A DNA stretch of 32,266 bases, taken from the IMG/VR virus record IMGVR_UViG_3300007344_000127, positions 1 through 32,266 of that record. One strand, 5' to 3'. Of the stretch, positions 87-32,160 are shown piece by piece. Position numbers and translations under genes: made by a program. Each line of letters begins with the position of its first letter. The stretch's first letter is position 1. The DNA comes from a virus. The notes beneath the pieces were generated by a model. That model worked only from the letters and a program-made list of their open reading frames with translations. It ran no database searches and was not told the DNA's origin.

Positions 87-374
87 ATGAAAGTGACCCA
101 CGACAAAAAAACGCAACACGGAGCCAACCGGACAGCAGCCGAGGCAACAATCGCCGCCATGCACGCCGCCGGGCTGCTCGAAGACATCGACGCCGCCCGG
201 ATCGCCACACTGCGCACTCTGGCCACCGTACTCGACCAGCAACCCGACAATGCGTCACTCTGGCGAGAATACCGAGCCGCTGAACAAGCAATCAGGAGCA
301 CTACCCACCATGAACCTGACGACTTCGCCAACCTCCTCGCAGATCTGTCTGCCGAGGTGGGCAACCAAACGTAA
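87..374 (+). CDS. terS: Putative terminase small subunit
   Basis: This 95-aa, mostly helical, charged protein lies directly before the large terminase. By position it should recognise the packaging site and regulate the large subunit. The sequence has no family motif I can name with certainty. The middle part (about residues 15-80) is Ala-rich helix, and the C-terminus (HHEPDDFANLLADLSAEV) is acidic and could contact the large subunit. The ATG follows CCGAGGT, a weak ribosome binding site. Its end overlaps the probable terL start by 65 bp, so the two are translated together. The assignment rests mainly on synteny; a small head-associated protein is the alternative. Confidence 0.6.
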   Translation: MKVTHDKKTQHGANRTAAEATIAAMHAAGLLEDIDAARIATLRTLATVLDQQPDNASLWREYRAAEQAIRSTTHHEPDDFANLLADLSAEVGNQT

Positions 375-1722
375 CCCCGACAGGCCGAACCGGGCAGACA
401 GCGTCGGCGCATTGTCGGCGAGGCTCGGCCAACCGTTGATGCCATGGCAGCAACAGGTCATCGAGGTCGCCACCGAGATCGACCCGGACACCGGCTGGCC
501 GGCATACCGTGAGATCGTGGTAACTGTGCCTCGCCAATCAGGCAAGACCACGCTGGTGTTAGCATGGGAAGTCGATAGGGCGTTGATGTGGGGCAAACCA
601 CAACGGATCGCCTACACTGCACAAACCGGGTTCGATGCTCGACGGAAACTGCTGGATGATCAAGCGCCGATTTTGATGGGGTCGAGCCTTGCCGCTGCTG
701 TCGATCGGGTGCAACGAGCGCAAGGCAACGAAGCGCTGGTGTTCCGCAACGGCTCGAGAATCGATGTGTTGGCATCAACCGAATCAGCCGGCCACGGTAA
801 AAGCCTCGACGCTGCCTGTATCGATGAGGCGTTTGCCGACACCGACGACCGGCGGGAAACTGCGATCTTGCCGACGATGGCAACCCGCCGGGATGCACAG
901 GTGATGGTGGTGTCGACGATGGGCACCGATGCTTCGACGCTTCTGAACCGGAAGGTGGCTGCGGGTCGTGCCGCTGTCGAGGCTGGCCAATCCGACGGTA
1001 TCGCATATTTCGAGTGGTCGGCCGACCCGGACATGGCGATCGATGATCCGGCGACGTGGTGGTCATGTATGCCGGCGTTAGGCCATACAATCACCGAGGA
1101 CGTGGTGCGGCATGCTTTGCAGACGATGTCTGAGGGTGAGTTCCGCAGGTCGTGGTTGAACCAGCAGACACGGTCGTCGGAGCGGGTGATCCCGCTCGAT
1201 GCGTGGGAGCGTGTGGTGAGCGATTCGGTTGCGCCGGATGGCGGGCTGCAGTTCGCTTTCGATGTGTCGGCCGACAGGTCACATGCGTCTATCGCTGTCT
1301 CTGATGAGAACAACCAGATCGAGGTGATCGACAGCCGGCCGGGTGTCGCTTGGCTAGTGGAGCGGATCATTGACCTGTCGAAAAAATGGGATGCGACTGT
1401 GTTGCTCGATGGGCTGTCACCGGCCGGCGGTTTCGCTGACCAGTTGGAAGCGGCAGGTGTTCGGGCGGTCAGACTTTCAACTCGTGAGGTGGCGTTCGCC
1501 TGCGGAGCGTTCTATGATTCAGTGATGAGTAGCAACATTTCTATCAGGTCACACCCTGATCTGGAGGTTGCTATAGCAGCGGCGAAGCGGCGACAGGTCG
1601 GCGATTCGTGGATCTGGTCAAGATCTGGCGATGTTGATGTGTCATCGTTGGTCGCTGCAACATTGGCCGGATTTAGACGTTCGGCCACACAGCCGACGGA
1701 ACTATGGGTGGCATACGATTGA
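310..1722 (+). CDS. terL: Terminase large subunit (packaging ATPase/nuclease)
   Basis: This is the motor that pumps DNA into the prohead and cuts the concatemer. The ATPase domain has a Walker A loop at residues 73-81 (VPRQSGKTT) and Walker B at 168-174 (AACIDEA, D172/E173). The RNase H-like nuclease domain starts near residue 313, with acidic residues D318 (FAFDVSADRS) and D367 (VLLDGLSPAGG). I chose ATG 310 (470 aa) because AGGAG precedes it and the N-terminal PRWATKR resembles related actinophage TerL starts; an ATG at 250 is in frame but runs through terS. The stop overlaps the next small gene if that uses a TTG start. Confidence 0.93.
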   Translation: MNLTTSPTSSQICLPRWATKRNPDRPNRADSVGALSARLGQPLMPWQQQVIEVATEIDPDTGWPAYREIVVTVPRQSGKTTLVLAWEVDRALMWGKPQRIAYTAQTGFDARRKLLDDQAPILMGSSLAAAVDRVQRAQGNEALVFRNGSRIDVLASTESAGHGKSLDAACIDEAFADTDDRRETAILPTMATRRDAQVMVVSTMGTDASTLLNRKVAAGRAAVEAGQSDGIAYFEWSADPDMAIDDPATWWSCMPALGHTITEDVVRHALQTMSEGEFRRSWLNQQTRSSERVIPLDAWERVVSDSVAPDGGLQFAFDVSADRSHASIAVSDENNQIEVIDSRPGVAWLVERIIDLSKKWDATVLLDGLSPAGGFADQLEAAGVRAVRLSTREVAFACGAFYDSVMSSNISIRSHPDLEVAIAAAKRRQVGDSWIWSRSGDVDVSSLVAATLAGFRRSATQPTELWVAYD

Positions 1723-4423: not shown

Positions 4424-5821
4424 ATGAACATCGAAAAGATGAATCAGGAGATCGAAGAAATCCGCAGCCGGGTCATCGAACTCTCCGAACAGCAAGAAAT
4501 CACACCAGAAGAAGACGCCGAACTCGACCAGCGTCTCGCCGACGTCGAGGCTCTCGTCGCCAAGCGTGACGCAGCAGTCGAGCGTGAGGCACGAGTCGCC
4601 GCAGCCCGTGAAATCGCCACCGAGCGTGCCGCAGGTTTCGACGCACCACAGGTCATGCAGCGTACCGCTACCGACATCGACCCTGCCCGTGCAACACGGT
4701 CAGAGTTGCGTGACGCAGCGCTCGCCATCCTCGACCGTGACGGCTCACACCTCGCAGCCCGCAACGGCGACCACGTCGATGCGCTTCTTCGCACGAAGAA
4801 CGCACTCACCGACGGCGGCGTCATCGCCAAGCGCATGGTGCTCACGGAGACCGACGCATACCGCTCGGCCTTCATGAAGGGCGTCACGCAGTCCGCTCCA
4901 GCGTTCAACGCTGAAGAGGCACGTGCACTTGACGAGTTCCGTGCGATGAGCGAAGGCTCAGACGCCGACGGTGGATTCGGCATCCCGGTGTTGATCGACC
5001 CATCGATCATCCTGACATCCGGCGCATCAGCCGCCCCAGTTCTCGATCTTGCTCGTGTTGTCACGATCACGACCGACGAATGGAAAGGCGTCAGCAGCGC
5101 AGGCGTGTCATGGTCATACGACGCCGAAGCAGCAGAAGTCAGCGATGATTCACCGACGCTCGCACAGCCGACCGTCCCGGTGTACACCGCACGTGGCTTC
5201 ATCCCATACTCGATCGAAGTAGGCTCAGATTATCCGGCATTCGCTGCCGAGATGCGCCGCCTCCTCGATCAGGGATATATCGACCTCGTCGCACAGCAGA
5301 CCATCACCGGTTCAGGCTCATCGCAGCCAACCGGCATCTTCACCGCACTCGACGCCAACACCAACGTCGAGGTCGTCGTCACAACCGACGGCGCATTCGG
5401 TGCAGTTGACCTGCTCAAGACATGGAAGAGCCTGCCAGAGCGTTACCGTGCAAACGCCACATGGATCATGAACACCGACGTGGAGAACGAAATCCGTTCG
5501 TTCGCCGCAGGAGCAGACAGCGCCTACTACACCGTCGATCTCGCCGCAGGCGGCATCGGCACGTTGTTCGGCCGTCCAATCCGCACCACGGACTATGCAC
5601 CGGAGTTCACCGGCACCACTGGCGCAGCGAACATCCTCACCGTGGGTGACTTCTCGAACTTCTTGGTGGCACAGCGTGCCGGCATGAGCGTCGAGTTGAT
5701 CCCACACTTGTTCGCCACCGGCAACAACCGCCCATCAGGTCAGCGTGGCTGGTTCGCCTACGCTCGCCACGGGTTTGACAGCATCAACGATCTCGGGTTC
5801 CGCCTCCTGCAGAACCAGTGA
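4424..5821 (+). CDS. Major capsid protein, HK97 fold
   Basis: This is the shell-forming protein. Residues 1-75 are a charged coiled coil (EEIRSRVIELSEQQEITPEE onward) typical of the delta domain that serves as built-in scaffold and is removed by the protease. The mature domain follows, with GGFGIPVLIDPSIILTSG, the long-loop region around WSYDAEAAEVSDDSPTL, and a C-terminal part with LFGRPIRTTDYAPEF and VGDFSNFLVAQRAGMSVEL, all typical of the phage_capsid family. The length (465 aa) fits capsid plus delta domain. AAAGGGG precedes the ATG by a short gap, a strong ribosome binding site fitting high expression. A strong hairpin follows the stop. Confidence 0.93.
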   Translation: MNIEKMNQEIEEIRSRVIELSEQQEITPEEDAELDQRLADVEALVAKRDAAVEREARVAAAREIATERAAGFDAPQVMQRTATDIDPARATRSELRDAALAILDRDGSHLAARNGDHVDALLRTKNALTDGGVIAKRMVLTETDAYRSAFMKGVTQSAPAFNAEEARALDEFRAMSEGSDADGGFGIPVLIDPSIILTSGASAAPVLDLARVVTITTDEWKGVSSAGVSWSYDAEAAEVSDDSPTLAQPTVPVYTARGFIPYSIEVGSDYPAFAAEMRRLLDQGYIDLVAQQTITGSGSSQPTGIFTALDANTNVEVVVTTDGAFGAVDLLKTWKSLPERYRANATWIMNTDVENEIRSFAAGADSAYYTVDLAAGGIGTLFGRPIRTTDYAPEFTGTTGAANILTVGDFSNFLVAQRAGMSVELIPHLFATGNNRPSGQRGWFAYARHGFDSINDLGFRLLQNQ

Positions 5822-5829
5822 TCTGAAGA

Positions 5830-5866
5830 GTCCCACCCCATCGCCGGGTAGTCGATGGGGTGGGAC
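5830..5866 (+). terminator. Strong hairpin after the capsid gene
   Basis: A perfect 14-bp stem (5830-5843 GTCCCACCCCATCG with 5853-5866) and a 9-nt loop lie 9 nt after the capsid stop. There is no clean T-run on the plus strand, so it may be an attenuator or an RNA-end stabiliser that sets the high capsid to low downstream ratio rather than a full stop. Confidence 0.8.
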
Positions 5867-5901
5867 ACTACCCTTTCACTGCCCAACTGGAGAAACTACC
5901 T

Positions 5902-6111
5902 ATGGCACACCACGTCCAATGCACCAGCAACTGCTCGGTGCGCAACGCCGACGGAATCGTCATCAGACTCCGAGCAGGCACCATCTACCGTCAAGACGAC
6001 ACCATCGTCAGACTACACCCCAACCTGTTCATCGGGATCGACACCGGCGAAGTCGAACAGGCCACTCGAAACCCCGGCCAGAAACGCAACACCAAACGAC
6101 CAGCCCAATGA
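5902..6111 (+). CDS. Small conserved-type head-region protein, unknown function
   Basis: This 69-aa protein begins at ATG 5902 behind TGGAGAAACTACCT (GGAG about 9 nt upstream). An in-frame upstream ATG at 5860 lies inside the capsid terminator hairpin and is unlikely. Two Cys near the start (QCTSNCSVRNADG) precede a short beta-rich part (IVIRLRAGTIYRQDDTIVRL) and a basic tail. Its stop overlaps the ATG of the glycosyltransferase gene (ATGA, 6108-6111). I do not recognise the family; its size and position suggest a head decoration or completion protein, but nothing in the sequence proves it. Confidence 0.65.
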   Translation: MAHHVQCTSNCSVRNADGIVIRLRAGTIYRQDDTIVRLHPNLFIGIDTGEVEQATRNPGQKRNTKRPAQ

Positions 6112-6833
6112 GCGGCAACATCTGTCTGGCCTACGTCCACGGGCTAGAGGTGTCACATTCTTGGCACCAGTCAGTGATGTCAATGGTCGGCTACGACATC
6201 GCCCACCACCAGCGGTTAATCGGCGGCGGCTGGCTCGCCACAAAATACGGCACCGGTGGGATCGTCAAAGCACGCAACGACACCGCTCGACAGTTCACCC
6301 ATGAAACCACACAGTCCGACTGGCTGCTGTGGATAGACACCGACATGGGATTCCAACCAGACGCAGTCGACCGGCTGTTCGAGGTGGCCGACCCTGAAGA
6401 GGCACCGATCGTTGGCGGTCTCTGTTTCATGAACCGTGAGATAAAACAGGACGACTACGGCGGGTTTTTGATCCAGCCAGCACCCACCATCTTCGACTGG
6501 CACCAGACAGGAGAACAGACCGGGTTTAATGTCAGATATGACTACGAAAAGAACTCGGTGGTCAGATGTGCCGCGACCGGCAGCGCTTTTGTCCTGATCC
6601 ATCGGTCAGCATTTGAAAAGGTCGAGGCACAATATGGAGCCAGTTGGTACAGCCCGATCCAAAACCCGACCACCAACTCATGGATCTCCGAAGATCTCTC
6701 ATTTTGTGTCAGAGCGTCAGCGCTCGACATCCCGATCCACGTACACACCGGGGTGAAAACCACCCACCTGAAACATATGTGGCTCGACGAACGGATCTAC
6801 AACAGGCTCGACAGGATAGAGCCAGATGGCTGA
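6108..6833 (+). CDS. Glycosyltransferase-like protein (GT-A fold)
   Basis: This 241-aa protein resembles phage GT2-like sugar transferases. A DxD-type nucleotide-sugar/metal motif is visible at residues 76-80 (IDTDM, D77/D79) in the usual context DWLLWIDTDMGFQPDAVDRL. The C-terminal ISEDLSFCVRASALDIPIHV followed by a His (TTHLKHMW) matches the acceptor-side ED and His region of the fold. It likely moves a sugar from an NDP-sugar onto a virion protein or another phage target in the cytoplasm. ATGA overlaps at both ends join it to 5902-6111 and to the second transferase at 6826. The donor and acceptor cannot be read from the sequence. Confidence 0.8.
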   Translation: MSGNICLAYVHGLEVSHSWHQSVMSMVGYDIAHHQRLIGGGWLATKYGTGGIVKARNDTARQFTHETTQSDWLLWIDTDMGFQPDAVDRLFEVADPEEAPIVGGLCFMNREIKQDDYGGFLIQPAPTIFDWHQTGEQTGFNVRYDYEKNSVVRCAATGSAFVLIHRSAFEKVEAQYGASWYSPIQNPTTNSWISEDLSFCVRASALDIPIHVHTGVKTTHLKHMWLDERIYNRLDRIEPDG

Positions 6834-7485
6834 AATATCTATCATCGTCCCTGTTAGAGAACGAGCACACAACGTGGCGCCGTTGATCGAATCGTTGCAA
6901 GCCAGCACCGACCGAGCCGAGTTGGTGTTCGTGGCCGATGCAGATGACACCGCCCAACTGTGGGCGCTCGAACGACACAACGCCGACGTGATACTCAATT
7001 GGGATAGAGACAGGAAAACATTCCCGGTGAAAGCCAACCTCGGCTATCGGTTGACGGACTCACCATGGATCATGCTGTGCGGCGACGACGTCCATTTCCA
7101 CCCCGGATGGGTCGAGGCCAGCATCGACCTCTACCCCGACGCCGGTCTGATCTCAACCAACGACCTCGGCAACAGCCGGGTGCGACGTGGCGAACACGCC
7201 GTGCACCCGATATTTAGACGCACATGGGTCGAAACCAACGGAGCCTCATGGGACGGAGCAGACACCTTGTGCCACGAAGGATACGGGCATTGTTTCGTCG
7301 ACGACGAATGGTCAACAGTGGCCAAACAGGCGGGTGCGTTTGTCTACGCACCAGATGCGATCGTTGAACATCTGCACCCGGTATGGGGCAAAGCCAAACA
7401 AGACCGGATCTATCGGATAGCGCAACAACAGATGGACATAGACCGGATACGATTCCAAAGGAGACGCAGAGCATATGCATCCTGA
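6826..7485 (+). CDS. Glycosyltransferase family 2-like protein
   Basis: This 219-aa protein has the standard GT2 start (ISIIVPVRERAHNVAPLIES), the first acidic patch at residues 38-41 (DADD), and the metal-binding GDD at 86-88 (MLCGDDVHFHPGW). A later HCFVDDEWSTVAKQAG and a conserved-looking His (VEHLHPVW) fit the acceptor and base regions. It overlaps the upstream transferase by 8 bp and the downstream methyltransferase by 11 bp, so the three form one cassette. It is short for a GT2 enzyme and soluble, with no membrane helix, so a protein acceptor in the cytoplasm (capsid or tail subunit) is more likely than a lipid carrier. Confidence 0.83.
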   Translation: MAEISIIVPVRERAHNVAPLIESLQASTDRAELVFVADADDTAQLWALERHNADVILNWDRDRKTFPVKANLGYRLTDSPWIMLCGDDVHFHPGWVEASIDLYPDAGLISTNDLGNSRVRRGEHAVHPIFRRTWVETNGASWDGADTLCHEGYGHCFVDDEWSTVAKQAGAFVYAPDAIVEHLHPVWGKAKQDRIYRIAQQQMDIDRIRFQRRRRAYAS

Positions 7486-7984
7486 AGCCATGCAATGGGT
7501 GGCCTACCAGACCCGAAATAAAACATATGGCACAGTCATCGACCTCGGAGGGCGCAACGTCAACGGCACCACCCGAGACACCATCGGCTGTGACCTCTAC
7601 ATCGCTGTCGATATCGCACCCGGCGATGGGGTCGATGTCGTGTGCGATGCGGCCGAATACCGACCGGAAGAGCCGGTCGAATGTGTCGTCACCACCGAGA
7701 TGTTGGAGCACACACCGAGAGCCGCCGACATTGTGGCGGCAGCGTTCGAGATGTTGACACCCGGCGGCGAGTTCATCGGTACCGCTGCCGGGGTGGGCAG
7801 ACCCCCGCATTCGGCTGTCGATGGCAACCGGCTGAGAGAGGGCGAGCACTACGCCAACATCGACAAATCCGACCTGTTCGATTGGTTGCACGACACCGGG
7901 TTCGTCGACATCCAGATCGATGTCCAGCGGAGGCCTGCCGATATCCGCTGGACGGCTCGCCGACCCGATCAAACCTCGGTGTGA
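7475..7984 (+). CDS. SAM-dependent methyltransferase, class I
   Basis: This 169-aa protein has the class I Rossmann signature: motif I at residues 21-27 (VIDLGGR), an acidic residue after strand 2 (AVDIA, D46), the MLEHT motif at 76-80 and LTPGGEFIGTAAG at 94-106, as in Methyltransf_11-type small-molecule or sugar methyltransferases. It does not show DNA-methylase motifs (DPPY or NPPY). Its overlap with the glycosyltransferase suggests it methylates the same glycan. Its stop overlaps the tail-to-tail neighbour on the minus strand by 16 bp. Confidence 0.85.
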   Translation: MHPEAMQWVAYQTRNKTYGTVIDLGGRNVNGTTRDTIGCDLYIAVDIAPGDGVDVVCDAAEYRPEEPVECVVTTEMLEHTPRAADIVAAAFEMLTPGGEFIGTAAGVGRPPHSAVDGNRLREGEHYANIDKSDLFDWLHDTGFVDIQIDVQRRPADIRWTARRPDQTSV

Positions 7985-8526
7985 TCCTTTCGTGAGAGGT
8001 TGGCCTCGTTGATGTAGATGCGCTCGCCGTTGTCGAGTTTCACGCAGACCTTGACGACACCGTAGCCATCGGCCTCTGGTGCGATCCAGATGGCGACACC
8101 TTCGGTGCCGATTGGGAACTTGCGACCTTTGACGACCACAACCTCGCAGCCGACGGTCACTTCATTGATCTGACGTGCGAATGCTTCATGAATGGCCTTG
8201 AACTGGTGGTATGTCTCGATGTCTCGGTCGTCGCACTGGTGGAAATCCGACTTGACATAGTAGCGGTTGCCACGCTCTGAGGTGCGAACATCGACCCGGT
8301 ATTTCTTGCCTGTGCGGTTCGAGGTTGCCCACACGATGTGGCCACCGCAGCGGTTGCAAAACACGACTTCGAGTGCGCCGTCTTGGTTGTTGAGTCCGCC
8401 GCCGACCCAGAGGCCGGTGGTGCGCTGAGTGCGGCCTGATGTGAGGGTGTATTCCCGGCCTGCGTGGATGTAGCCGGTCTCGGTTACTTGGTAGTGGCTG
8501 GTGTTTTGGTTCTGTGTTTCGCTCAT
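7969..8526 (-). CDS. Zinc-knuckle / KOW-like accessory protein, antisense in the late operon
   Basis: This 185-aa protein is encoded against the direction of the surrounding late genes, with its own leaderless promoter. Residues 55-100 hold a CxxC (C57, C60) and a HxC (H96, C98) that could bind zinc. The C-terminal part (VTVGCEVVVVKGRKFPIGTE, then a strand-rich stretch ending INEANLSR) resembles a KOW/SH3-like beta barrel. It may bind nucleic acid or RNA polymerase. Its first codons (ATGAGCGAAACACAGAAC) resemble those of the minus-strand early genes at 29583, 31245 and 21277. It looks like a moron: an early-type gene carried within the structural region. Exact function unknown. Confidence 0.82.
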   Translation of the reverse strand: MSETQNQNTSHYQVTETGYIHAGREYTLTSGRTQRTTGLWVGGGLNNQDGALEVVFCNRCGGHIVWATSNRTGKKYRVDVRTSERGNRYYVKSDFHQCDDRDIETYHQFKAIHEAFARQINEVTVGCEVVVVKGRKFPIGTEGVAIWIAPEADGYGVVKVCVKLDNGERIYINEANLSRKDHTEV

Positions 8527-8532
8527 ATTTTT

Positions 8533-8561
8533 ATTTTACCAGATCTGACAAGTCTAGACAA
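8533..8561 (-). promoter_or_regulatory. Leaderless early promoter (copy 1)
   Basis: On the minus strand: -35 TTGTCT (8556-8561), 17-bp spacer containing TTGTCAG, -10 TAAAAT (8533-8538), then 6 nt to the ATG at 8526. That spacing puts the transcript start at or next to the ATG. It is nearly identical to the copy at 29590-29618. Confidence 0.8.
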
Positions 8562-8566
8562 CATCA

Positions 8567-8594
8567 GAAGATTGTTGCAATTACAATAATCTTC
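8567..8594. repeat. 28-bp near-palindrome, copy 1
   Basis: Arms GAAGATTGTTGC and ACAATAATCTTC around an AATT centre, 12 of 14 pairs matching. It sits 5 bp upstream of the -35 of the antisense gene. The copy at 29624-29651 is its exact reverse complement. Likely a dimeric regulator site. Confidence 0.75.
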
Positions 8595-20962: not shown

Positions 20963-21277
20963 TCAGGCTGGCATCCAGTCCTCGTCGCCGAGGAATGCAC
21001 GCACCATGTCATCGGCGCTGCCGGTGCCGTCGGCGATGTGGACACCCTCGTGGTAGATGGTGAAAAACTCGCCATCGGCGTTGGTCTCCCAGACGAGGCG
21101 GTAGCGGTCGCCGTCGGCTGCCCATGCGTACTTCTCGCCCGAGTCGCCCTTTTGTGCGAAGCGTGGCTCGATGCCGAGATCCTCCATGATCTCGTAGAGG
21201 TCGCCACTGATCGGGTTGGGGATGACGGCGTTGTTGAAGAATGGGACGGTGTTTTTGGTGTTGTGTGTCTTGCTCAT
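20963..21277 (-). CDS. Leaderless early protein, unknown function
   Basis: The 104-aa acidic protein starts at ATG 21277 with a -10 box 6 nt upstream and no ribosome binding site. Its first residues (MSKTHNTKN) resemble those of the other cassette-driven genes. The rest (GDLYEIMEDLGIEPRFAQKG; YRLVWETNADGEFFTIYHEG; DDMVRAFLGDEDWMPA) looks like a compact alpha/beta domain of high negative charge, which could mimic DNA or bind a host protein. No family recognised. Confidence 0.72.
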   Translation of the reverse strand: MSKTHNTKNTVPFFNNAVIPNPISGDLYEIMEDLGIEPRFAQKGDSGEKYAWAADGDRYRLVWETNADGEFFTIYHEGVHIADGTGSADDMVRAFLGDEDWMPA

Positions 21278-21283
21278 ATTTAT

Positions 21284-21313
21284 ATTTTACACTATGTGGA
21301 CAATATTTGTCAA
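21284..21313 (-). promoter_or_regulatory. Leaderless early promoter (copy 2)
   Basis: -35 TTGACA (21308-21313), 18-bp spacer with ATTGTCCA and CATAGTG, -10 TAAAAT (21284-21289), 6 nt to ATG 21277. This is a near-consensus sigma-A promoter. Confidence 0.85.
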
Positions 21314-21314
21314 G

Positions 21315-23171
21315 TCAGAGCAGGTATGAGTCCAAACCATCACCCGCCATCTGCTGCCGGTAACTACGCAACGCCACCCGCAAAGCATCCGACCCGATCT
21401 TCAACCCATGATCCCTGACCAGCGCCGCCACCTTCCGCTCAGACAACTCCGGGTCGATATCGAGATCCTGCAACGCATCGAGACACTCGGCCACCTTCGA
21501 ATCCGACACACCATCGGTCACCAACCGGTAGACGATCGGCTCATCCGACATCGCCAACGTGATCTGCTGCGGCACCCACCCCATGCGAGCCTTCCGGGTC
21601 TTCAACACGAACCGGTCGCCACGCTTGGTCATCTCCCACACAATGTCCACGTCGTCATTCTTCGCCGACGACCCACGCTGCCCCTTCTCCAGATTCTTAC
21701 CAGCATGATCGATCCTGACCGACGCAACACCGTCCTGCTTCAACAGATAGCCAGTATGCCGATAGAACGACCGCACCGTGTCGGCGTCATTCTCATCGCC
21801 AGACACCGCCCGGCCGAAAGTGTCGATCACCACCAACTCAGCGCCAACCAGCCGAGCCAAACGTTGCACCTGCCGGCCACCCTCCTCACCGTCGAGCGAC
21901 GACAGCGACGGCAACAACGCATAGCGGAGATTTGACAGATCGTGCTCCGCACCATAGCCCATGCCGACCAGCCGTTCCGACAGGTCATCACCAGTCATCT
22001 CATAGTCGAGATACAGCACACATCGAGGCCGACCAGCATGGCCAAAGATCGGCGTGCCAGTGGCCACCGCTGCGGCCAGCCACAACGCCAACAGGCTCTT
22101 ACCAGTACCACCCGGAGCGAAAATGGCGTGCGCCCTGTGCTCGGCGATCAACGGCTCAGCCAACCACTCGGCCACGCTGTGATCCTGCGACCAGAAAGTC
22201 GGCCAGTCAATCAACATCGACAGCAGATCACGGTCAGTGTCCGACTCGGTGTCAGGTGTCTCCGCCGCTGTGGTCGGGTGTTCCTCCCGGAGAAGCGTCC
22301 GAGCCGCTTCGCTGCGGTCACCGTTGTGATGGCGACATGCGTAGTAGCCAAACCGGCTATAGGCACCCGGTGGCAGCCAAGGCACGCTCGAAGTGAACAC
22401 CACCAGCACGTCCTGCCCACGGTAGCCGACCGTGGCTGATGTCCCGTCACGACCCTGTTTGCCCGGCCGTGTCCAGTGTTGCTCGCCGTCGCTGTCTGTC
22501 CTGACCAACGTCCAGCCGTCGGCGGACAGCAGCCCGTCCCACGTCGTCCGCTGGTTGTACCGGGCGGCCGGCGAGTCGTTGCCGTCGTTGCTCAACGTGG
22601 TGGTGGGTGGTGCCACGTCTTTTTTGGCGATGGCGTCGAGCAACCAACGTGGCGCTGGTTTGGGTGTACACTCATCTGGCGATCTGCCTTCTGCCCACCG
22701 GTACGGGGTGCCGTTCGGGTGGACGGTTGGTGGTGCCAACACTTGGCCGCCGTCGCCACGGATGTCGATACCGGCACCGAGCGCCCGCCCGGCATCGTTG
22801 CGTACCTCCAACTCGGGCGGTGCCAACAGATAGATGTGGCGGCCGTTGTTCCCGGTCTCAACCTCTAAGGTTTCAGGCAGTGCGCCGTGTTTCTCAACCA
22901 GCGCAGCCATAGTGGCTGTCCCGGATTCGCCATGTTCGTCGATGTCGATAACGATGAGATTTTGGCCGTTGGGCTGCGCACCGGTGGCGACACCTAAACC
23001 GTGCGACCGGTAGATCCCTTTCCACCAGTTGTCGATCGTTTTTTGACTGTTGGTAGCGGCATGTTGCCAGCCTTTCATCGATGGCCGTTTCTCGCCCGGC
23101 ACGATCGGGACGACACGCCAGCCATAGCGTGCCAACCTTGACGCCTCTTTGTAGGCGGCGGTTTCGCTCAT
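21315..23171 (-). CDS. PrimPol-helicase (AEP primase/polymerase + RecA-like ATPase)
   Basis: This 618-aa protein joins two replication activities. Residues 1-180 are an archaeo-eukaryotic primase/polymerase domain: the metal-binding D76-I-D78 (LIVIDIDEHG), GRHIYLL with H112, and GIDIRGDGGQVLAPPTVHPN (134-153). Residues about 340-560 are a RepA/RecA-like ATPase, with Walker A at 352-360 (APGGTGKSL), LDYEMTGDDLSERL and Walker B at 446-451 (LVVIDT), then a conserved DHAGKN. The C-terminal 60 residues look like a winged helix. It is the only replicative polymerase seen in the window, as in the Z-DNA phage S-2L. It starts 9 bp after the resolvase stop, behind AGAGGAAC. Confidence 0.88.
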   Translation of the reverse strand: MSETAAYKEASRLARYGWRVVPIVPGEKRPSMKGWQHAATNSQKTIDNWWKGIYRSHGLGVATGAQPNGQNLIVIDIDEHGESGTATMAALVEKHGALPETLEVETGNNGRHIYLLAPPELEVRNDAGRALGAGIDIRGDGGQVLAPPTVHPNGTPYRWAEGRSPDECTPKPAPRWLLDAIAKKDVAPPTTTLSNDGNDSPAARYNQRTTWDGLLSADGWTLVRTDSDGEQHWTRPGKQGRDGTSATVGYRGQDVLVVFTSSVPWLPPGAYSRFGYYACRHHNGDRSEAARTLLREEHPTTAAETPDTESDTDRDLLSMLIDWPTFWSQDHSVAEWLAEPLIAEHRAHAIFAPGGTGKSLLALWLAAAVATGTPIFGHAGRPRCVLYLDYEMTGDDLSERLVGMGYGAEHDLSNLRYALLPSLSSLDGEEGGRQVQRLARLVGAELVVIDTFGRAVSGDENDADTVRSFYRHTGYLLKQDGVASVRIDHAGKNLEKGQRGSSAKNDDVDIVWEMTKRGDRFVLKTRKARMGWVPQQITLAMSDEPIVYRLVTDGVSDSKVAECLDALQDLDIDPELSERKVAALVRDHGLKIGSDALRVALRSYRQQMAGDGLDSYLL

Positions 23172-23180: not shown

Positions 23181-23516
23181 CTAGTCTTCAGGTAGTATGC
23201 GGATCAAAACCTCCATCGGCAGCACAGCGTACCACTGGCCGACATCGGTTGTTCCCCTCTTCTTCACTACGACAGCGCCGATATCGGTGCCGTCGTTCTC
23301 CATCTCTGCCGCCAACTCTCGCAGCCAGCCAGCCAGATCGAGCCGCTGGTGGTTCTTAACCTCTAACGTCACACCGGGTATCCCACGGATGTCGCCTCGG
23401 TCGTCGTGCCGGCCAGCATCATAGCGACGCTCGGCATCTGGCCAGCCGTTGGCGGCAAGCCACCGGGCGACCGCCAACTCGGCGGCGCTTCCTTTACGTT
23501 TGTTGCTGTTCGCCAT
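23181..23516 (-). CDS. Holliday junction resolvase-like nuclease (PD-(D/E)XK)
   Basis: The 111-aa protein fits the small Hjc/VRR-type nucleases: a basic start (MANSNKRKGSAAELAVARWL) with E13, then the catalytic core D42 (DRGDIRGIPG) and E52-V-K54 (VTLEVKNHQ), followed by a helix and a strand that closes with GAVVVKKRG. It probably cuts branched replication intermediates before packaging. It overlaps the WhiB gene by 23 bp and lies just upstream of PrimPol. Confidence 0.85.
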   Translation of the reverse strand: MANSNKRKGSAAELAVARWLAANGWPDAERRYDAGRHDDRGDIRGIPGVTLEVKNHQRLDLAGWLRELAAEMENDGTDIGAVVVKKRGTTDVGQWYAVLPMEVLIRILPED

Positions 23517-23886
23517 CTACCGCTTCACCTGCAGCCCTCTTGCAATCGTCACATCGACATTCTACCGCTATATAGCGGGAGATCGTGCCGCAGGCCGGTG
23601 GCAACTCGACCGGTCTCCCATGATCCTCACAATAGTGCCGCCATCTGCGCCGCTGCCGGTACGTCAACCCGGCAGCAAACATATGTGCAGACGGATCTGG
23701 CCGGGTGAAAAACACCCACCGGTGACAGTCGAGGTAGACAGGGCATGACTCGCAGATGTTCCTGCAGTAGTCTTGTCGAGCCAGCCCCATCTCAACCCCG
23801 ATGGCCTCCAAGAATTTCGGATTCCACGGTTTGCCCGGCGACTTGCAGGCGGCGTCCGCCATCCAATCACCGCTGTATAGCACCAT
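23494..23886 (-). CDS. WhiB-family regulator with extra Cys-rich C-terminus
   Basis: The 130-aa protein has the four-Cys iron-sulfur pattern of WhiB proteins: C14 (DAACKSPG), C45, C48 and C54 (ICESCPVYLDC), then GLTYRQRRRWRH at 73-84 in place of the G[VI]WGG turn and basic tail. WhiB proteins are restricted to actinobacteria and their phages and bind the primary sigma factor. After residue 85 a second Cys/His group (C86, H89, C99, C110, C112, C115) suggests a small zinc domain, not usual for short phage WhiBs. The gap between C14 and C45 is longer than the common range. The ATG overlaps the upstream gene by 20 bp. Confidence 0.85.
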   Translation of the reverse strand: MVLYSGDWMADAACKSPGKPWNPKFLEAIGVEMGLARQDYCRNICESCPVYLDCHRWVFFTRPDPSAHMFAAGLTYRQRRRWRHYCEDHGRPVELPPACGTISRYIAVECRCDDCKRAAGEAVDGEQQQT

Positions 23887-24514: not shown

Positions 24515-26026
24515 TTAGTTCTCCTTAGTTGTATTGATGGACATTTGGCCGTCAGGCCTTATGATGATCTCGCCCGTGCGGGCAAGTTCGGGCAGAGCCT
24601 CCAACAATGTGGCGGTCTGCTCGACTGTGAGCCAGCCGACGATCTCGCCGGCCGTTTCCGATTGTAACCCGGTCAGATGGCGCAACACCCCGAGAGCGAT
24701 GTCAGCATCTGGCCAGTCGCTGGTCAGTTGCACCAGCAGTCGTGCGATCTCAAACCGGCGGACAGATGGCCGCTGCCTAAGCGATATCGACGCACCGGCG
24801 CTGTTTGCCTCTTTGGCGATCTGCATGATGATCTCCTGCTGCGCCTCCGGCAGCGACTCGATCTTGGTTTGTAACGCTGCCACGTCCGATTCTTTGACCC
24901 GCCGGCCTTCTTTCGGTTTGTCCCTGACCAACGGCACCTGTGTTTTTGGCGGTTCCGGTTTCTGTTTCGTCGGGTCGTCCCCGGCAAACGGCGCCTCCAA
25001 CACTGTCTCGATCCAGTTGAGACAGGCCACGATCTCGTCGACCTCCAGTTGGCTGTAGACATGGTCGGCTGACAGTTTCGGGATACCGGCCGGCCAGTAC
25101 CCGCCCAACAGGTCACGGCCGGTGTCATACCCGAGGATGGTGGCCACCCGGCTCTTCAACCAGACACGCTGTGCATCCGGTTTGCTTCCGGTGGCCTCTC
25201 CTTTGGCTTCCCTTGCGTCAGAGACCGGTCGAGGCATGTCGGCAGGGGTCAGACGCACGAGAGGCTCCCCGGAGCGCTCCGCCTGTCTCACTTGGAAAGC
25301 CAGATCGGCCAACCGCAGCCCTTCCTCAACATCGACCTCGTACATCGCCGGCTCACCACCATCGGCCGGGATATGGGCGATATAGGCCGAGCGGGTGTCA
25401 ACCCCGAGCGGCCGCCGTTCCCCGGTGGCGATATCATAGATGTCGCTGGTGGCGTAGATCGCCAACTGCACCATATAGGCCAACGGCCGCTTACCGATCG
25501 ACTTCCCTGTCTTCTTGTCGACCACCACACAACGGCCATCGGTCGTCACACAGATGTTATCTAAAGAGCCGGCCGCCTCGAACCGGTCATTCACCACTGT
25601 CACCTCGATCAAATCGGGAGCCGGCTGCCAACCGAGGCCATCCAACAACGTCTGCCACGCCTGTACAGGTGCGAGAAACTCACCGGCGACCGACCCGACA
25701 TCGAGCGTCCCGGCATCAACCTGAGCCAACACATCGTGGATGGCGGTGCCAGTGTTCGCAGCACGAGACGCACCACCAGCATCCATCATCTGCTGCACCA
25801 ACCCGTCGAGTTTCCGGTCGTCGTCTTTCGCAGCGGTCGCCAACGACATCAGATCCGTCCGGTTGATCGCACCCAACAGCACCATCCGCTGCTTCCACTT
25901 GTTCAACCCGAACTGGTTCTCCAACGTCTGACCGTACGACGACACCCGGCTGTAGGCGACAGGTTTCCCACCGCCCGCCGGGACAATCAACGGCCGACCC
26001 CAACGGTCTCTATTGAAATCGGTCAT
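24515..26026 (-). CDS. RecB/Cas4-like exonuclease (PD-(D/E)XK)
   Basis: This 503-aa protein has a RecB-type nuclease core between residues 90 and 195: NTGTAIHDVL with H97, E141 (LIEVTVVN), D156 (AAGSLDNICV), D170-K-K172 (VVVDKKTGKS), and the Q187/Y191 motif (YMVQLAIYA). Phages use such enzymes as recombination exonucleases with SSB or annealing partners. Residues about 320-503 are an extra helical region without a clear family. Residues near 264-285 (TPADMPRPVSDAREAKGEAT) are encoded by the 32-bp sequence repeated at 19782-19813. The start overlaps the upstream dUTPase stop (ATGA). Confidence 0.85.
   Translation of the reverse strand: MTDFNRDRWGRPLIVPAGGGKPVAYSRVSSYGQTLENQFGLNKWKQRMVLLGAINRTDLMSLATAAKDDDRKLDGLVQQMMDAGGASRAANTGTAIHDVLAQVDAGTLDVGSVAGEFLAPVQAWQTLLDGLGWQPAPDLIEVTVVNDRFEAAGSLDNICVTTDGRCVVVDKKTGKSIGKRPLAYMVQLAIYATSDIYDIATGERRPLGVDTRSAYIAHIPADGGEPAMYEVDVEEGLRLADLAFQVRQAERSGEPLVRLTPADMPRPVSDAREAKGEATGSKPDAQRVWLKSRVATILGYDTGRDLLGGYWPAGIPKLSADHVYSQLEVDEIVACLNWIETVLEAPFAGDDPTKQKPEPPKTQVPLVRDKPKEGRRVKESDVAALQTKIESLPEAQQEIIMQIAKEANSAGASISLRQRPSVRRFEIARLLVQLTSDWPDADIALGVLRHLTGLQSETAGEIVGWLTVEQTATLLEALPELARTGEIIIRPDGQMSINTTKEN
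25191..25222. repeat. 32-bp inverted repeat, copy B (inside the nuclease gene)
   Basis: Exact reverse complement of 19782-19813; the flanking GCATGTCGGCAGG (about 25233-25246) is also shared. The coding copy is in frame, so it is probably the source of the intergenic copy. Confidence 0.9.
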
Positions 26027-26859
26027 CGTCCCGTACTCCCAAACCCTGTCGCACCACGCTCCGAATCGGACAACGTCCCCTCAACCCAACGGTACCGGTT
26101 AGCCACCAGATCGAACGGAACAATCTGTGCGACCCGCTCACCCGGCTCGATCGTCTGCGCATATTCACCGATATTCTGTACACAGGCAAACAGTTCGCCA
26201 CGGTAGCCGGCATCGATCACCGACGGAGCGACAAACATCCGACGCTGAAACGTCGAAGACCGGCCAAGGATCAAACACCACACGCCCGGCGGGAACTCGA
26301 CACCGATACCGGCCTCAACGTTCACCATCTCACCCGGTTGTATCGTCAACGGCTCACTGCCCGAATAGTGCAGATCGAACCCGGCATCGCCCTCTTTCCC
26401 TGCCCGAGGTGCGACACCACCCGACAACGGCTGCCACTTAGCAACCTGCTGGTCACGCTTACCGAGTGCCACCTGATAAGCCTTATCGACAGCAAACTGC
26501 CTGTAACGAGGATCGAAGATATAGGCGCCCGAATAGCGCAGGATCACCGAGTTCTCCGGTTTGATATCGGTAACCACCACCATCGGGATATTCCACTCAC
26601 GAGCCAACGCCATCTCAAACGGCACACCAAGCGAATGGTCAGCCTCCATCATCACCACGACCAACACCGAAGCGTCACGCAACGCCGACTCGTTGACCCG
26701 CTGCACCCTCGAGGGCGGCGGTTTCTTCGAACCCCAAGCCAGATACGGCGAGAACACGGTCAGCCCCGCCTCGATCAGCATACTGCGGAAAGTGGCCGCA
26801 TGTCTAGCAGTCACACCGTCAGTGGAGCGGTCAATCGGCTGTGCAAGATAAGCAATCAC
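26023..26859 (-). CDS. Deoxyribosyltransferase-like / dUTPase fusion
   Basis: The 278-aa protein joins two nucleotide-pool domains. Residues 1-130 resemble nucleoside 2-deoxyribosyltransferases or DNPH1-like N-glycosidases: IAYLAQPIDRS at the start, AGLTVFSPYLAW, then a loop with N56, and ADHSLGVPFEMALA with the presumed catalytic E82. Residues 147-278 are a trimeric dUTPase with all five motifs: DAGFD at 158, GRSSTF at 199, VIDAGYRGE at 214, GERVAQIV at 240 and RGATGFGSTGR at 268. dUTPase turns dUTP to dUMP and keeps uracil out of DNA. The first domain may break down an unwanted deoxynucleotide. The gene overlaps both neighbours by 4 bp. Confidence 0.85.
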   Translation of the reverse strand: MIAYLAQPIDRSTDGVTARHAATFRSMLIEAGLTVFSPYLAWGSKKPPPSRVQRVNESALRDASVLVVVMMEADHSLGVPFEMALAREWNIPMVVVTDIKPENSVILRYSGAYIFDPRYRQFAVDKAYQVALGKRDQQVAKWQPLSGGVAPRAGKEGDAGFDLHYSGSEPLTIQPGEMVNVEAGIGVEFPPGVWCLILGRSSTFQRRMFVAPSVIDAGYRGELFACVQNIGEYAQTIEPGERVAQIVPFDLVANRYRWVEGTLSDSERGATGFGSTGR

Positions 26860-27101
26860 CCCAACCTCCCACGGTACAGACCACGAAGAGCCGGATCAGG
26901 CTCGATCGTCTCGATATGTGACACCCCGTCGGCGTCGACCCACGCCACATGGCGGGTCAGCCCGGTGACGTTAGCCAACACCTGATCGTCGGCGATAGCC
27001 CGGGCGATCGGGAACCCCGGCGGCGGAATCCACAACGGCCGCTGCGGATATTCGGCCAACAGCCGATCACGATGCGGGTTGTCCTTGTTTACATTGCTCA
27101 C
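26856..27101 (-). CDS. Small early protein, unknown function
   Basis: The 81-aa protein probably starts at GTG 27101, overlapping the upstream stop (GTGA), with AAGGAG about 10 nt before it; a GTG at 27110 is too close to that site. The middle part (LLAEYPQRPLWIPPPGFPIA) is Pro-rich and precedes a beta-rich end (TRHVAWVDADGVSHIETIEP). No family recognised. It lies between the MazG-like and the fusion dUTPase genes, inside the nucleotide operon, so a role in pool metabolism or regulation is possible. Confidence 0.62.
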   Translation of the reverse strand: MSNVNKDNPHRDRLLAEYPQRPLWIPPPGFPIARAIADDQVLANVTGLTRHVAWVDADGVSHIETIEPDPALRGLYRGRLG

Positions 27102-27409
27102 AGTTTCCACGCTCCTTCTCTAGCGGAAAGCACCATTTTGGAATAGACAGATATATCGAACCACGTGTCGTCCGAGGCGACCTCGCCCCGTTCAACAGCG
27201 GAAGTCACACGGGCAACCTTGCCCAAAAGGTAGAACATACAGCCGATCTCCATAGCCTCGACATCGCTGACCGGATCGACCCTGTGTTGCAGTTCGCACA
27301 TCTTCCGGCCGATCTCGACCAGATCACGAGAGCCATACTCCTCCATCTTAGCGACGGTGGCATCGGCCTCTTTCATCGCTTGAGCGATCCACCACTGTTT
27401 CAGGCTCAT
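27098..27409 (-). CDS. MazG-like nucleotide pyrophosphohydrolase candidate (possible MazZ)
   Basis: This 103-aa all-helical protein resembles MazG-like or Nmad1-like phage families: KEADATVAKMEEYGSRDLVE in the first helix pair, then EAMEIGCMFYLLGKVARVTS and GEVASDDTWFDISVYSKMV, where E, K-x-x-R and the DDTxxDIxxY pattern are the usual signature residues. Such enzymes cut NTP or dNTP to NMP plus pyrophosphate. It is translationally coupled to the PurZ-like gene (ATGA overlap, 27406-27409). In Z-DNA phages the enzyme MazZ supplies dGMP for PurZ; this protein is a good candidate for that step. The family assignment is by pattern, and the substrate is inference. Confidence 0.6.
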   Translation of the reverse strand: MSLKQWWIAQAMKEADATVAKMEEYGSRDLVEIGRKMCELQHRVDPVSDVEAMEIGCMFYLLGKVARVTSAVERGEVASDDTWFDISVYSKMVLSAREGAWKL

Positions 27410-28446
27410 CGGAACACCATCGTCGATGCGCTAGTGCCGAAAGCAGAGAAACACATGCCGAGTTCATCCTCGACCTGTTCAATCCACGCCATCGCACGCT
27501 CCTCAATATCGGACATCAACATCGTGCCTTCCAGATCGGGGTCGAGATAATCGACCATGGTCAACGCAAGGTGCAGTTTCTCGTTCGCTGCGCCACCGTT
27601 GCCGGTGATCGCCATACGGGCTGCTTGGTGATCCCACTCAGCAACACGCCGGATCTTTTGAGTGACCGTGGTACGCTCCGGCTGGATATAGCCACCGCTG
27701 CGACCCTCGAGCACATCCCACGAGATCTCTTTGCCCATCTCGCCGCTGTTGCCAGCCACCCGGATCGGATAGGTGCGGAACACCAGCCAGATCTCCGGCC
27801 TGTTCAACGGGGTGACACCAGCCTGAGCGACAACATCGATCGCTCGACAGTCGTTGGTGGTCGACTGCGGGTAGTGGCCAGCATGCAACCCTAGGTGGTA
27901 GCCCTGCGTGCCCTCGATGAGGATGTTAACGCCAGACTGGTGTCGATCGTTGAGCATCGCCGACGTATCGGTCAGATACGGCAGTAGGTCGTCCACGTCA
28001 CGGGCTGTGCGTGCCTTGCGCAACATCCGAGCCGCACGTGACGCACCGATCCCCTTGCCCGTCGAACCAACCTCGCCGACCAGATCGGTCTCCTGCTGTT
28101 TGTGCTCGTCGTCTATGATCGTCGCCTCGCTGTCGATGAACAACCGGTCGGCCACCGGATGACCAGCGTCCTCCAACATCTTGATCTCAGCGAACAAAAC
28201 CGCCAGATCGATCTCCGACCCGGCAGCGATCACCAACTCGGCCTCATGGTCAACCGCCGCAGCGACCGGGATAGTGCGCAGCGGGAACCGGACACCGTTC
28301 TCGTCGACCACCGTGTGACCAGCGTTTGCGCCGCCCACCCGGACAGCAACCGGGACATCTCTAGTCTGGTGCAGTTGCGCAGCCACATGGCCTTTTGCCT
28401 CGCTGCCATACTGGCCACCAACCACGCAATAAATCGTGCCTGCCAT
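27406..28446 (-). CDS. purZ: PurZ-like adenylosuccinate synthetase (2-aminoadenine pathway)
   Basis: This 346-aa protein is a PurA-family enzyme, but short (PurA is about 430 aa) and close to the length of phage PurZ. The P-loop-like segment reads GGQYGSEAKGH (residues 10-20): the catalytic Asp of PurA (GDEGKGK) is replaced by S15. Other PurA landmarks are kept: RVGGANAGHT with H44, GSTGKGIG, IEGTQGYHLGLHAGHYP, FRTYPIRVAGNSGE and a C-terminal MVDYLDP. PurZ joins Asp to dGMP to give N6-succino-2-amino-dAMP, which host PurB then converts to dZMP. It is coupled to the MazG-like gene and follows 28957 by 1 bp, behind AGGAAAG. Confidence 0.88.
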   Translation of the reverse strand: MAGTIYCVVGGQYGSEAKGHVAAQLHQTRDVPVAVRVGGANAGHTVVDENGVRFPLRTIPVAAAVDHEAELVIAAGSEIDLAVLFAEIKMLEDAGHPVADRLFIDSEATIIDDEHKQQETDLVGEVGSTGKGIGASRAARMLRKARTARDVDDLLPYLTDTSAMLNDRHQSGVNILIEGTQGYHLGLHAGHYPQSTTNDCRAIDVVAQAGVTPLNRPEIWLVFRTYPIRVAGNSGEMGKEISWDVLEGRSGGYIQPERTTVTQKIRRVAEWDHQAARMAITGNGGAANEKLHLALTMVDYLDPDLEGTMLMSDIEERAMAWIEQVEDELGMCFSAFGTSASTMVFR

Positions 28447-28991: not shown

Positions 28992-29261
28992 TCAGGATTC
29001 TGCGGTGATGAAGTCACGGAGGGCATCGATGATGTCGCCCTTGCCCTCGACCAGCACGTCGCCGTCCATCTTGATCTGATAGGTGCGGGTCATGCTGCGG
29101 GTCACGATCTCGTAGCCTTGGATCGACCAGTACCAGCGGCCGCCGATGATCCCTTCATCCTTGATGCCCATTTCGTTTGCGATCTCGCAAACCTGATCGT
29201 ATGTGAGGGTTGTTTGGTTGCTCATTTCATTGGTTCCTTTTTGGTTCGTTGTTTTGCTCAT
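28992..29261 (-). CDS. Leaderless early protein with a second internal start
   Basis: The frame opens with a leaderless ATG at 29261 (89 aa, MSKTTNQKGTNEMSNQTT). An internal in-frame ATG at 29225 has its own AAAAAGGAACC site and would give a 77-aa form (MSNQTTLTYDQVCEIANEMG). The body contains EIANEMGIKDEGIIGGRWYW and YQIKMDGDVLVEGKGDIIDA, an alpha/beta domain of unknown family. Either or both starts may be used. It is the first gene of the nucleotide/replication operon that includes purZ. The 12 N-terminal residues appear to be translated leader, not part of the fold. Confidence 0.7.
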   Translation of the reverse strand: MSKTTNQKGTNEMSNQTTLTYDQVCEIANEMGIKDEGIIGGRWYWSIQGYEIVTRSMTRTYQIKMDGDVLVEGKGDIIDALRDFITAES

Positions 29262-29267
29262 ATTTAT

Positions 29268-29297
29268 ATTTTAGACTATGGAGACAATCCGTGTCAA
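29268..29297 (-). promoter_or_regulatory. Leaderless early promoter (copy 3), drives the purZ operon
   Basis: -35 TTGACA (29292-29297), 18-bp spacer containing ATTGTCTC and CATAGTC, -10 TAAAAT (29268-29273), 6 nt to ATG 29261. Nearly identical to the promoters at 20925 and 21284. Confidence 0.85.
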
Positions 29298-29307
29298 GTC
29301 AGAAGTG

Positions 29308-29583
29308 TCACTCCCAACTGTGCCACCAATCGACAGCCACTTCGAGGCTGTTGCGCTCGTCGTCAAGATCGGTCTCCCAAGCGTCAAGAGCCGTCTGGAT
29401 CTCCGGGTGACGGTCAACCATGACCTCAACAATGGCCATCTGTACGACGACCAGATCACGGGTTTTGCCAGCCCGGACGGCTCCATCTTTGAGTGATGCC
29501 TTGGCGAGTTGGATGAGGGTCTCGTCCGGGTTGCCGCCGATGACCTGCTTGATTGCTTGGATTGGTGTCTGTGTTTTGCTCAT
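29308..29583 (-). CDS. Leaderless early protein, unknown function
   Basis: The 91-aa acidic, helical protein starts at ATG 29583 with a -10 box 6 nt upstream. The first residues (MSKTQTPIQ) again match the cassette start. Further parts are IGGNPDETLIQLAKASLKDG, TRDLVVVQMAIVEVMVDRHP and ALDAWETDLDDERNSLEVAV, ending in VDWWHSWE. It has its own promoter, just downstream of the second near-palindrome, and ends 11 bp before the -35 of the next promoter. No family recognised. Confidence 0.72.
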   Translation of the reverse strand: MSKTQTPIQAIKQVIGGNPDETLIQLAKASLKDGAVRAGKTRDLVVVQMAIVEVMVDRHPEIQTALDAWETDLDDERNSLEVAVDWWHSWE

Positions 29584-29589
29584 ATTTTT

Positions 29590-29618
29590 ATTTTACCAGA
29601 TCGGACAAGTCGAGACAA
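29590..29618 (-). promoter_or_regulatory. Leaderless early promoter (copy 4)
   Basis: -35 TTGTCT (29613-29618), 17-bp spacer containing CTTGTCCG, -10 TAAAAT (29590-29595), 6 nt to ATG 29583. It matches the promoter at 8533-8561 in all but a few bases. Confidence 0.8.
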
Positions 29619-29623
29619 CATCA

Positions 29624-29651
29624 GAAGATTATTGTAATTGCAACAATCTTC
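29624..29651. repeat. 28-bp near-palindrome, copy 2 (inverted)
   Basis: Arms GAAGATTATTGT and GCAACAATCTTC around AATT. It is the exact reverse complement of copy 1 (8567-8594), although the promoter beside it lies in the same orientation in both places. It sits 5 bp upstream of the -35. Confidence 0.78.
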
Positions 29652-31066: not shown

Positions 31067-31245
31067 CGGACGACCCCACCACGGAATCCCGACATCATCG
31101 AATCCCACTGCTGCCGCTGCTGGCGGTCGTCCATCTGATCCCACTTGGCAGCATGGCAGCCAAGACAGATCTGGCCGGGGAACACCTCCAGCGGGTCGAT
31201 TTCGGCGTTGCACTTGGTGCATTTGATGTTCTGTGTTTTGCTCAT
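31063..31245 (-). CDS. Small leaderless zinc-ribbon protein
   Basis: The 60-aa protein starts at ATG 31245 with a -10 box 6 nt upstream. It has two CxxC pairs (C9/C12 and C28/C31: KCTKCNAEIDP and ICLGCHAAKW), a four-Cys zinc ribbon, then a helix (MDDRQQRQQWDSMMSGF). The first residues MSKTQN repeat the cassette start. A DNA- or RNA polymerase-binding role is common for such proteins, but is not shown here. Confidence 0.75.
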   Translation of the reverse strand: MSKTQNIKCTKCNAEIDPLEVFPGQICLGCHAAKWDQMDDRQQRQQWDSMMSGFRGGVVR

Positions 31246-31251
31246 ACCCAC

Positions 31252-31280
31252 AGTTTACCACACCGGACAAACAAAGACAA
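31252..31280 (-). promoter_or_regulatory. Leaderless early promoter (copy 5)
   Basis: -35 TTGTCT (31275-31280), 17-bp spacer containing TTTGTCCG, -10 TAAACT (31252-31257), 6 nt to ATG 31245. The upstream TGATG matches that of the copies at 8526 and 29583, but the 28-bp palindrome is absent. Confidence 0.75.
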
Positions 31281-31290
31281 CATCAGACAA

Positions 31291-31491: not shown

Positions 31492-32160
31492 ATGGCCAGA
31501 AAACCCGAATACGCAGGCGCATGGCGCCGAATCCGCAAACAAATCCTCGAAAGAGACAACCACACCTGCCAAATCCAAAACACCGGCTGCACCACCCACG
31601 CCACCGAAGTTGACCACATAATCCCCACCAGCCAAGGCGGCGCATGGTGGGACACCAACAACCTCAGAGCCTCATGCCGCAAATGCAACAACACACGCAT
31701 CGACCGAACCGGCAACAACAAATGGCAACACAACACCAACACCCACATCACACTCATCACCGGCGCACCCGCCTCCGGCAAAACCCACCACATACAACAA
31801 CACGCCCGAGAAGGAGACCTCATAATCGACTACGCCGCCCTACTCGACGCCATAGGCGGCAACAGCAAAACACGAACCGAAAACCACCCACTCCACCCCG
31901 CAGTAACCGCAGCCCGCACCGCCCTCATCCGCTCCATCCGCCGAGCCGAAATCAACACCCCACGCATCTGGCTCACCAGCACCAACCCCAACGCACCCGA
32001 CTTCATGCCACACCACCGCCACATCGAACTCGACCCCGGAGAGGAAGAATGTCTTCGCCGCTCAAAGGAAAGAGGAGACCCACCCTACATGGAGAGGATA
32101 ATCAGAGCATGGTATACTCCAAGGGCTGCGTCAAAGCAGCAGGGGTCTCGCCAGTGGTAA
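31492..32160 (+). CDS. HNH endonuclease fused to a P-loop kinase-like domain
   Basis: The 222-aa protein has an HNH domain at residues 1-75: structural Cys C26, C33, C62 and C65, catalytic EVDHIIP (D41/H42) and N57 in TNNLRASCRKCNN. Residues 85-208 form a second domain with Walker A G91-APASGKT (91-98), a Walker B-like DLIIDYAALLDAIGG, an IWLTSTNP strand and an Arg-rich lid (ECLRRSKERGDPPYMERII), like polynucleotide kinase or zeta-toxin folds. HNH proteins beside the terminase help cut packaging sites in cos phages; a kinase could mend or mark the ends. Leaderless start. Confidence 0.82.
   Translation: MARKPEYAGAWRRIRKQILERDNHTCQIQNTGCTTHATEVDHIIPTSQGGAWWDTNNLRASCRKCNNTRIDRTGNNKWQHNTNTHITLITGAPASGKTHHIQQHAREGDLIIDYAALLDAIGGNSKTRTENHPLHPAVTAARTALIRSIRRAEINTPRIWLTSTNPNAPDFMPHHRHIELDPGEEECLRRSKERGDPPYMERIIRAWYTPRAASKQQGSRQW

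Follow-up and report, generated by a model that had tools for sequence, protein, structure and literature searches.

A PurZ0 gene block in a metagenomic phage whose only candidate DNA polymerase is a PrimPol-helicase

Gene content and completeness of the window

The window, by which we mean the whole stretch of DNA analyzed here, comprises 32,266 nt of the IMG/VR virus record IMGVR_UViG_3300007344_000127; its features are listed in Table 1. The purZ gene is a single open reading frame that runs from ATG to stop, and from purZ through the exonuclease gene, adjacent genes overlap by 4 to 13 nt. The order of genes in this block is the same as in the relatives, of which the record G001 is the nearest, followed by G002 and G003, and a 95%-identical copy of purZ was found in one independent contig. 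A megablast search with the right part of the window returned no close isolate. The WhiB-like regulator suggests an actinobacterial host, and the phage therefore probably infects an actinobacterium.

Table 1. Features of the window discussed in the text
Feature	Position	Strand	Evidence and context
Small terminase-like protein (TerS), left contig end	87..374	+	PF23931 7.8e-4; syntenic in G003
Large terminase subunit (TerL)	250..1722	+	PHROG 9 2e-59
PrimPol-helicase, 618 aa: AEP polymerase-primase domain and RepA-like ATPase	21315..23171	-	PF09250 4.7e-42, PF13481 3.6e-28
RusA-like/VRR-type resolvase nuclease	23181..23516	-	PHROG 244 2.9e-25
WhiB-like regulator	23494..23886	-	PF02467 slightly under cut-off
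Conserved replication-module protein, 133 aa	24112..24513	-	PHROG 1911; syntenic in G001 to G003
Cas4/RecB-like exonuclease, 503 aa	24515..26026	-	PHROG 466
DmtZ-DutZ fusion, 278 aa: nucleoside deoxyribosyltransferase-like and dUTPase-fold domains	26023..26859	-	PF00692 9e-19, weak PF05014
84-aa protein, same overlapping operon	26856..27110	-	Open reading frame only; no family match
103-aa four-helix protein	27098..27409	-	4-nt overlap with purZ; homologues beside purZ
PurZ0-type 2-aminoadenylosuccinate synthetase, 346 aa	27406..28446	-	NCBIfam PurZ, tree, residue columns, PDB 7vf6
HNH and P-loop protein, right contig end, packaging side	31492..32160	+	PF01844, PHROG 4581; adjoins TerS in G003

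Terminal overlaps were found in the relatives G002 (126 nt, 100%), G003 (159 nt, 99.4%), G015 (123 nt) and G016 (99 nt, 100%), which are thus closed, complete assemblies. These four genomes of 32 to 35 kb are spread over two separate PurZ0 clades and carry the PurZ0 block and a PrimPol without PolA, and the layout common to G002 and G003 is also that of the window. In the complete G003, the genes for HNH, TerS and TerL are contiguous. Both ends of the window lie in the HNH-TerS spacer, of which about 190 nt are present in the window, which is cut there, compared with roughly 150 to 220 nt in G003, a range set by the choice of TerS start. In light of this similar spacing, the window looks like a near-complete tailed phage genome of about 32.3 kb. 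It has no terminal repeat, so a short stretch between HNH and TerS may be missing. This finding, together with the labeling of the record as linear in IMG/VR, would also fit an incomplete contig with a PolA/DpoZ gene in the missing part, but we consider this very unlikely: the junction at which the contig ends is contiguous in G003, and PolA is absent from the complete G002 and G003 and from 9/9 members of the clade of the window.

The synthetase is of the PurZ0 type

The original prediction of a PurA-family protein in which the GDEGKGK loop is altered and the other loops are kept was borne out: residues 14 to 20 read GSEAKGH, residues 38 to 45 read GGANAGHT, and the protein matched PF00709 (5.5e-41), PHROG 1211 (5e-80) and the NCBIfam PurZ model NF038379 (5.8e-90), the last with 301.5 bits against a cut-off of 300 bits and thus by a margin of 1.5 bits. 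The score was far under the cut-off of every NCBIfam PurA equivalog model. The nearest PDB entry was 7vf6, which is the PurZ0 of Gordonia phage Archimedes (PMC12884076).

The protein was placed in a tree of 165 sequences comprising phage PurZ and PurZ0, PurA of Escherichia coli and other bacteria, 15 archaeal PurA, 79 IMG/VR homologues and 40 bacterial Ser-type proteins. It joined the phage PurZ0 and not the bacterial or archaeal PurA: it fell within a clade that holds 7/7 PurZ0 isolates (node support, 0.912), the eight classical PurZ formed a separate clade (0.988), and PurZ and PurZ0 jointly had a support of 1.0. Models, tree and neighboring genes thus uphold the earlier call of a PurZ-like enzyme at the level of the PurZ family, but by its sequence relationships the enzyme is PurZ0 and not the classical PurZ, that is, a new addition to an established family. 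A true PurA is ruled out by the tree and the HMM scores. Remote similarity to PurA does exist and would be in line with a phage-acquired PurA that yields ordinary AMP; the exchange of the catalytic-loop Asp for Ser, the low PurA scores and the position inside the PurZ0 clade make this extremely improbable. One sequence from an uncultured bacterial metagenome-assembled genome (MAG) also lies inside the PurZ0 clade and is probably locus L101, judged by the 45% identity of the latter. The PurZ0-like gene of L101 has GSEGKG, and its contig was binned as a Verrucomicrobia MAG; it is probably phage DNA in the MAG bin.

In a column-by-column alignment, Ser15 aligned with the Asp of the GDEGKG loop of E. 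coli PurA, which we take to be Asp13 in the numbering of the literature. Asp is found in this column in 29/29 bacterial and archaeal PurA, and Ser in 15/15 phage PurZ and PurZ0 references and 79/79 viral homologues. The predicted Ser at the catalytic Asp position is therefore present, but it does not suffice as a mark of PurZ. A scan of GTDB genomes gave 80 chromosomal loci (L101 to L180), mostly coding for proteins that join a P-loop kinase-like domain to a GSEGKG-bearing PurA domain, as in L139:7416-9035. Since this bacterial family has the same Ser, the exchange is rejected as proof of PurZ, and the assignment to the phage Z pathway is based on phylogeny and neighbors. The fusion genomes tested all matched the PurA model (14/14), 12/14 with an above-cut-off match elsewhere in the genome. 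These fusion proteins are widespread, and their genes lie in a conserved cluster: the fusion or its PurA part was found in 80/80 loci, DUF7002 in 74/80 and an IrrE peptidase that weakly matches DarG in 41/80; YfbR-like HD or PRA-PH/MazG-like genes were present at times. No PADLOC model matched the kinase-PurA fusion.

Two further columns were compared. The window protein has Arg224 where every PurA has Lys, and it has kept Asp299 of the guanine-reading TKLD-type motif. The latter column is Asp in 7/7 PurZ0, 14/14 PurA and 15/15 archaeal PurA but Asn or Gln in 8/8 classical PurZ; accordingly, we read the enzyme as GTP using, and GTP is the predicted donor. Tong and colleagues reportedly described in 2023 nucleotide preferences (ATP or GTP) for PurZ0 and PurZ that conflict with one sentence of PMC12884076, in which the two stand in reversed order; the introduction of the same paper assigns ATP to PurZ.

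Operon partners of purZ

The dutZ gene present in PurZ0 phages and the usual dmtZ are represented in the window by a single fused gene. In DmtZ of Gordonia phage Ghobes, five residues have been mutated: E103 and Y6 proved essential, and changes at N77, D12 and P57 influenced activity (PMC12884076). Y6, D12, P57, N77 and E103 align with Tyr4, Asp10, Pro38, Asn56 and Glu82 of the fusion, so that 5/5 are kept. The dUTPase half scored under the NCBIfam dut cut-offs, as expected of a diverged DutZ, although by sequence it could be an ordinary dUTPase instead. The DatZ HMM matched S-2L and phiVC8 and the MazZ-1 HMM matched S-2L, but neither matched the window in the same searches. A search for PurB in the window also gave no match. 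PurB (adenylosuccinate lyase) is encoded in several other PurZ0 phages (G015, G016, G027, G035, G036, Galactica, Frizzle and Ghobes), and these phages thus cover two successive steps on the way to dZMP. No family was found for the 84-aa protein in Pfam, PHROG or NCBIfam.

Homologues of the 103-aa protein adjoin purZ in 79/81 loci; it is missing from two, a 4.4-kb fragment and vB_BpsS-140, a Bacillus phage that is not of the PurZ0 type. In Goodman, Galactica, Frizzle, Theresita and Spocter, the gene that follows purZ encodes a protein whose C-terminal region is homologous to the 103-aa protein, with 41 to 51% identity. The Arthrobacter phages encode another protein at this position, which in phage Wayne has been described as a DUF5664 dNTP hydrolase. 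The AlphaFold2 model has four helices (pLDDT, 96.8), and Lys21, Lys64, Arg67, Asp81 and Asp85 are invariant in the family. No Pfam family matched, and a PDB search with the model found no solved fold; a profile search of PDB, in which the alignment included long N-terminal tails, gave only spurious zinc-finger matches. Comparison with MazZ-1, MazZ-2 and DUF5664 by hhalign, with target sets of one to three sequences, gave probabilities of <1% each, and there was no support for MazZ-1, MazZ-2, DUF550 or DUF5664. There were weak matches to DUF6378/nucleotide-modification proteins (DUF6378-like, E of 0.5 to 0.7). Since neither these families nor a PDB fold found support, a MazG-like reading is a weak lead only; MazG-like proteins are not mentioned in the main text of PMC12884076. 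From the position of its gene, our guess is that the protein might be a nucleotide pyrophosphohydrolase-like partner of PurZ0.

Polymerase content

The window offered a single candidate DNA polymerase, the PrimPol-helicase: PolA (PF00476) was absent at E values up to 10, and neither PolB nor Pol III alpha was found. The AEP positions Asp76, Asp78, His112 and Asp136 are invariant among the relatives. The best fold matches of the structure model were the pRN1 primase and the RepA helicase; the model is mediocre (pTM, 0.35), and therefore only domain-level matches were used. PF00476 was detected in 4/4 PurZ0 isolates searched, which also have a longer prim-pol, and in 12/41 viral records searched. 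The PolA-less records form two supported clades, that of the window (0.992, nine tips) and one other (1.0, 12 tips), with PolA-bearing phages between them; several of these tips are fragments, and single absences are thus no proof. In the PurZ0-bearing record G031 (48,445 nt), the ends of which partly overlap, neither PolA nor Prim-Pol was found.

The combination of PurZ0 with DmtZ-DutZ in the absence of DpoZ represents a new form of the Z-DNA system and is unreported in the literature searched, which took in few subscription papers and not the main ones of 2021 to 2023. Earlier-described Z phages other than cyanophage S-2L have a Z-selective PolA (DpoZ). In S-2L, the PrimPol is not selective, and DatZ eliminates dATP (PMC8065100, PMC8599892).

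Proposed route to Z-DNA

The original prediction ended with the replacement of A by Z (2-aminoadenine) in the phage DNA. We consider it likely that this replacement takes place by the PurZ0 pathway, with A excluded by control of the nucleotide pool and with the PrimPol as the sole candidate replicase. PurZ0 would join aspartate to dGMP using GTP, and PurB and kinases of the host would complete dZTP. By analogy with the relatives from which their chemistry is known, the DutZ domain, with its dUTPase fold, would convert dGTP to dGMP, the substrate of PurZ0, and dATP to dAMP, and the DmtZ domain would strip dAMP to adenine or swap its sugar-phosphate onto free Z. This destruction of dATP, rather than polymerase choice, would exclude A. 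If dATP is destroyed, an unselective polymerase becomes usable for replication, and the AEP PrimPol-helicase would copy the genome as such, as in S-2L.

The AEP protein may, however, be only a primase, with a host polymerase replicating the genome. In that case, the Z-DNA pathway would be the same, but host DnaE would copy the DNA, and the PrimPol-helicase would just prime and unwind. We regard this as a doubtful but real possibility: dATP depletion is compatible with any unselective polymerase and the fold matches are to a primase and a helicase, whereas the known PurZ0 isolates have their own PolA, mostly near purZ, and S-2L relies on its PrimPol (PMC8065100). Since no Z-preferring polymerase is encoded, PurZ chemistry could also serve nucleotide-pool control, with Z only partly or not at all incorporated into DNA. 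This is unlikely, because the dATP-destroying DmtZ-DutZ is conserved in the operon and because in S-2L the substitution is complete although no selective polymerase is involved (PMC8065100).

Replacement of A by Z through pool control, which we favor, would take a compact gene set for making Z-DNA: PurZ0, DmtZ-DutZ, a small helical protein and a PrimPol. Going further, we tentatively suggest, with nearly as much reason for belief as for doubt, that such phages are widespread, unreported Z-DNA phages in which PurZ0/DmtZ-DutZ with PrimPol-only replication arose at least twice within the PurZ0 phages, independently of S-2L, and in which the four-helix protein supplies PurZ0 with dGMP as a third, so far undescribed pool enzyme. 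Among the Z phages described to date, only S-2L does without a Z-selective DNA polymerase. Should two further lineages, with many metagenomic contigs, manage the same by means of another synthetase and other enzymes that destroy dATP, then pool control and not polymerase choice would be a general, repeatedly evolved route to another DNA alphabet.

Comparison with known Z phages

The PurZ0 phages compared were Arthrobacter phages Wayne and Bennie, Gordonia phages Ghobes and Archimedes, Microbacterium phage Goodman and Streptomyces phage Galactica (PMC12884076). Their PurZ0 is about 41 to 45% identical to that of the window over most of its length by tblastn and 44 to 50% identical in the alignment. 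Like the window, they have DmtZ and DutZ (fused in Wayne, too) in the same gene order and, in the non-Arthrobacter phages, the four-helix gene. They differ in their polymerases, PolA (DpoZ-1) and a prim-pol that is longer and unlike that of the window, and many have RecA and a helicase as well; the window has only the short PrimPol-helicase. S-2L resembles the window in that PolA is missing and a PrimPol is the only candidate polymerase (PMC8065100, PMC8342488), so that in both, A exclusion would depend on dATP destruction; a PD-(D/E)XK exonuclease and a small nuclease are close by as well. S-2L has classical PurZ, MazZ and DatZ, whereas the window has PurZ0 and, in place of DatZ/MazZ, DmtZ-DutZ. 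The two PrimPols had no similarity detectable by BLAST, and the parallel with S-2L is thus functional only. Z phages of the phiVC8/SH-Ab 15497 type share with the window a PurA-derived synthetase with Ser in the loop but have an ATP-type pocket (Asn in the Asp299 column), DatZ, MazZ/DUF550 and a DpoZ-2 PolA.

Other genome features

Between the capsid and connector genes, at positions 5745 to 7984, the window carries two glycosyltransferase-like genes and one methyltransferase-like gene. Related intergenic repeats of about 35 to 90 nt were found at 8506-8594, 29562-29651, 21252-21319, 29238-29303 and 31223-31287 and also in G001; they are possibly regulatory elements.
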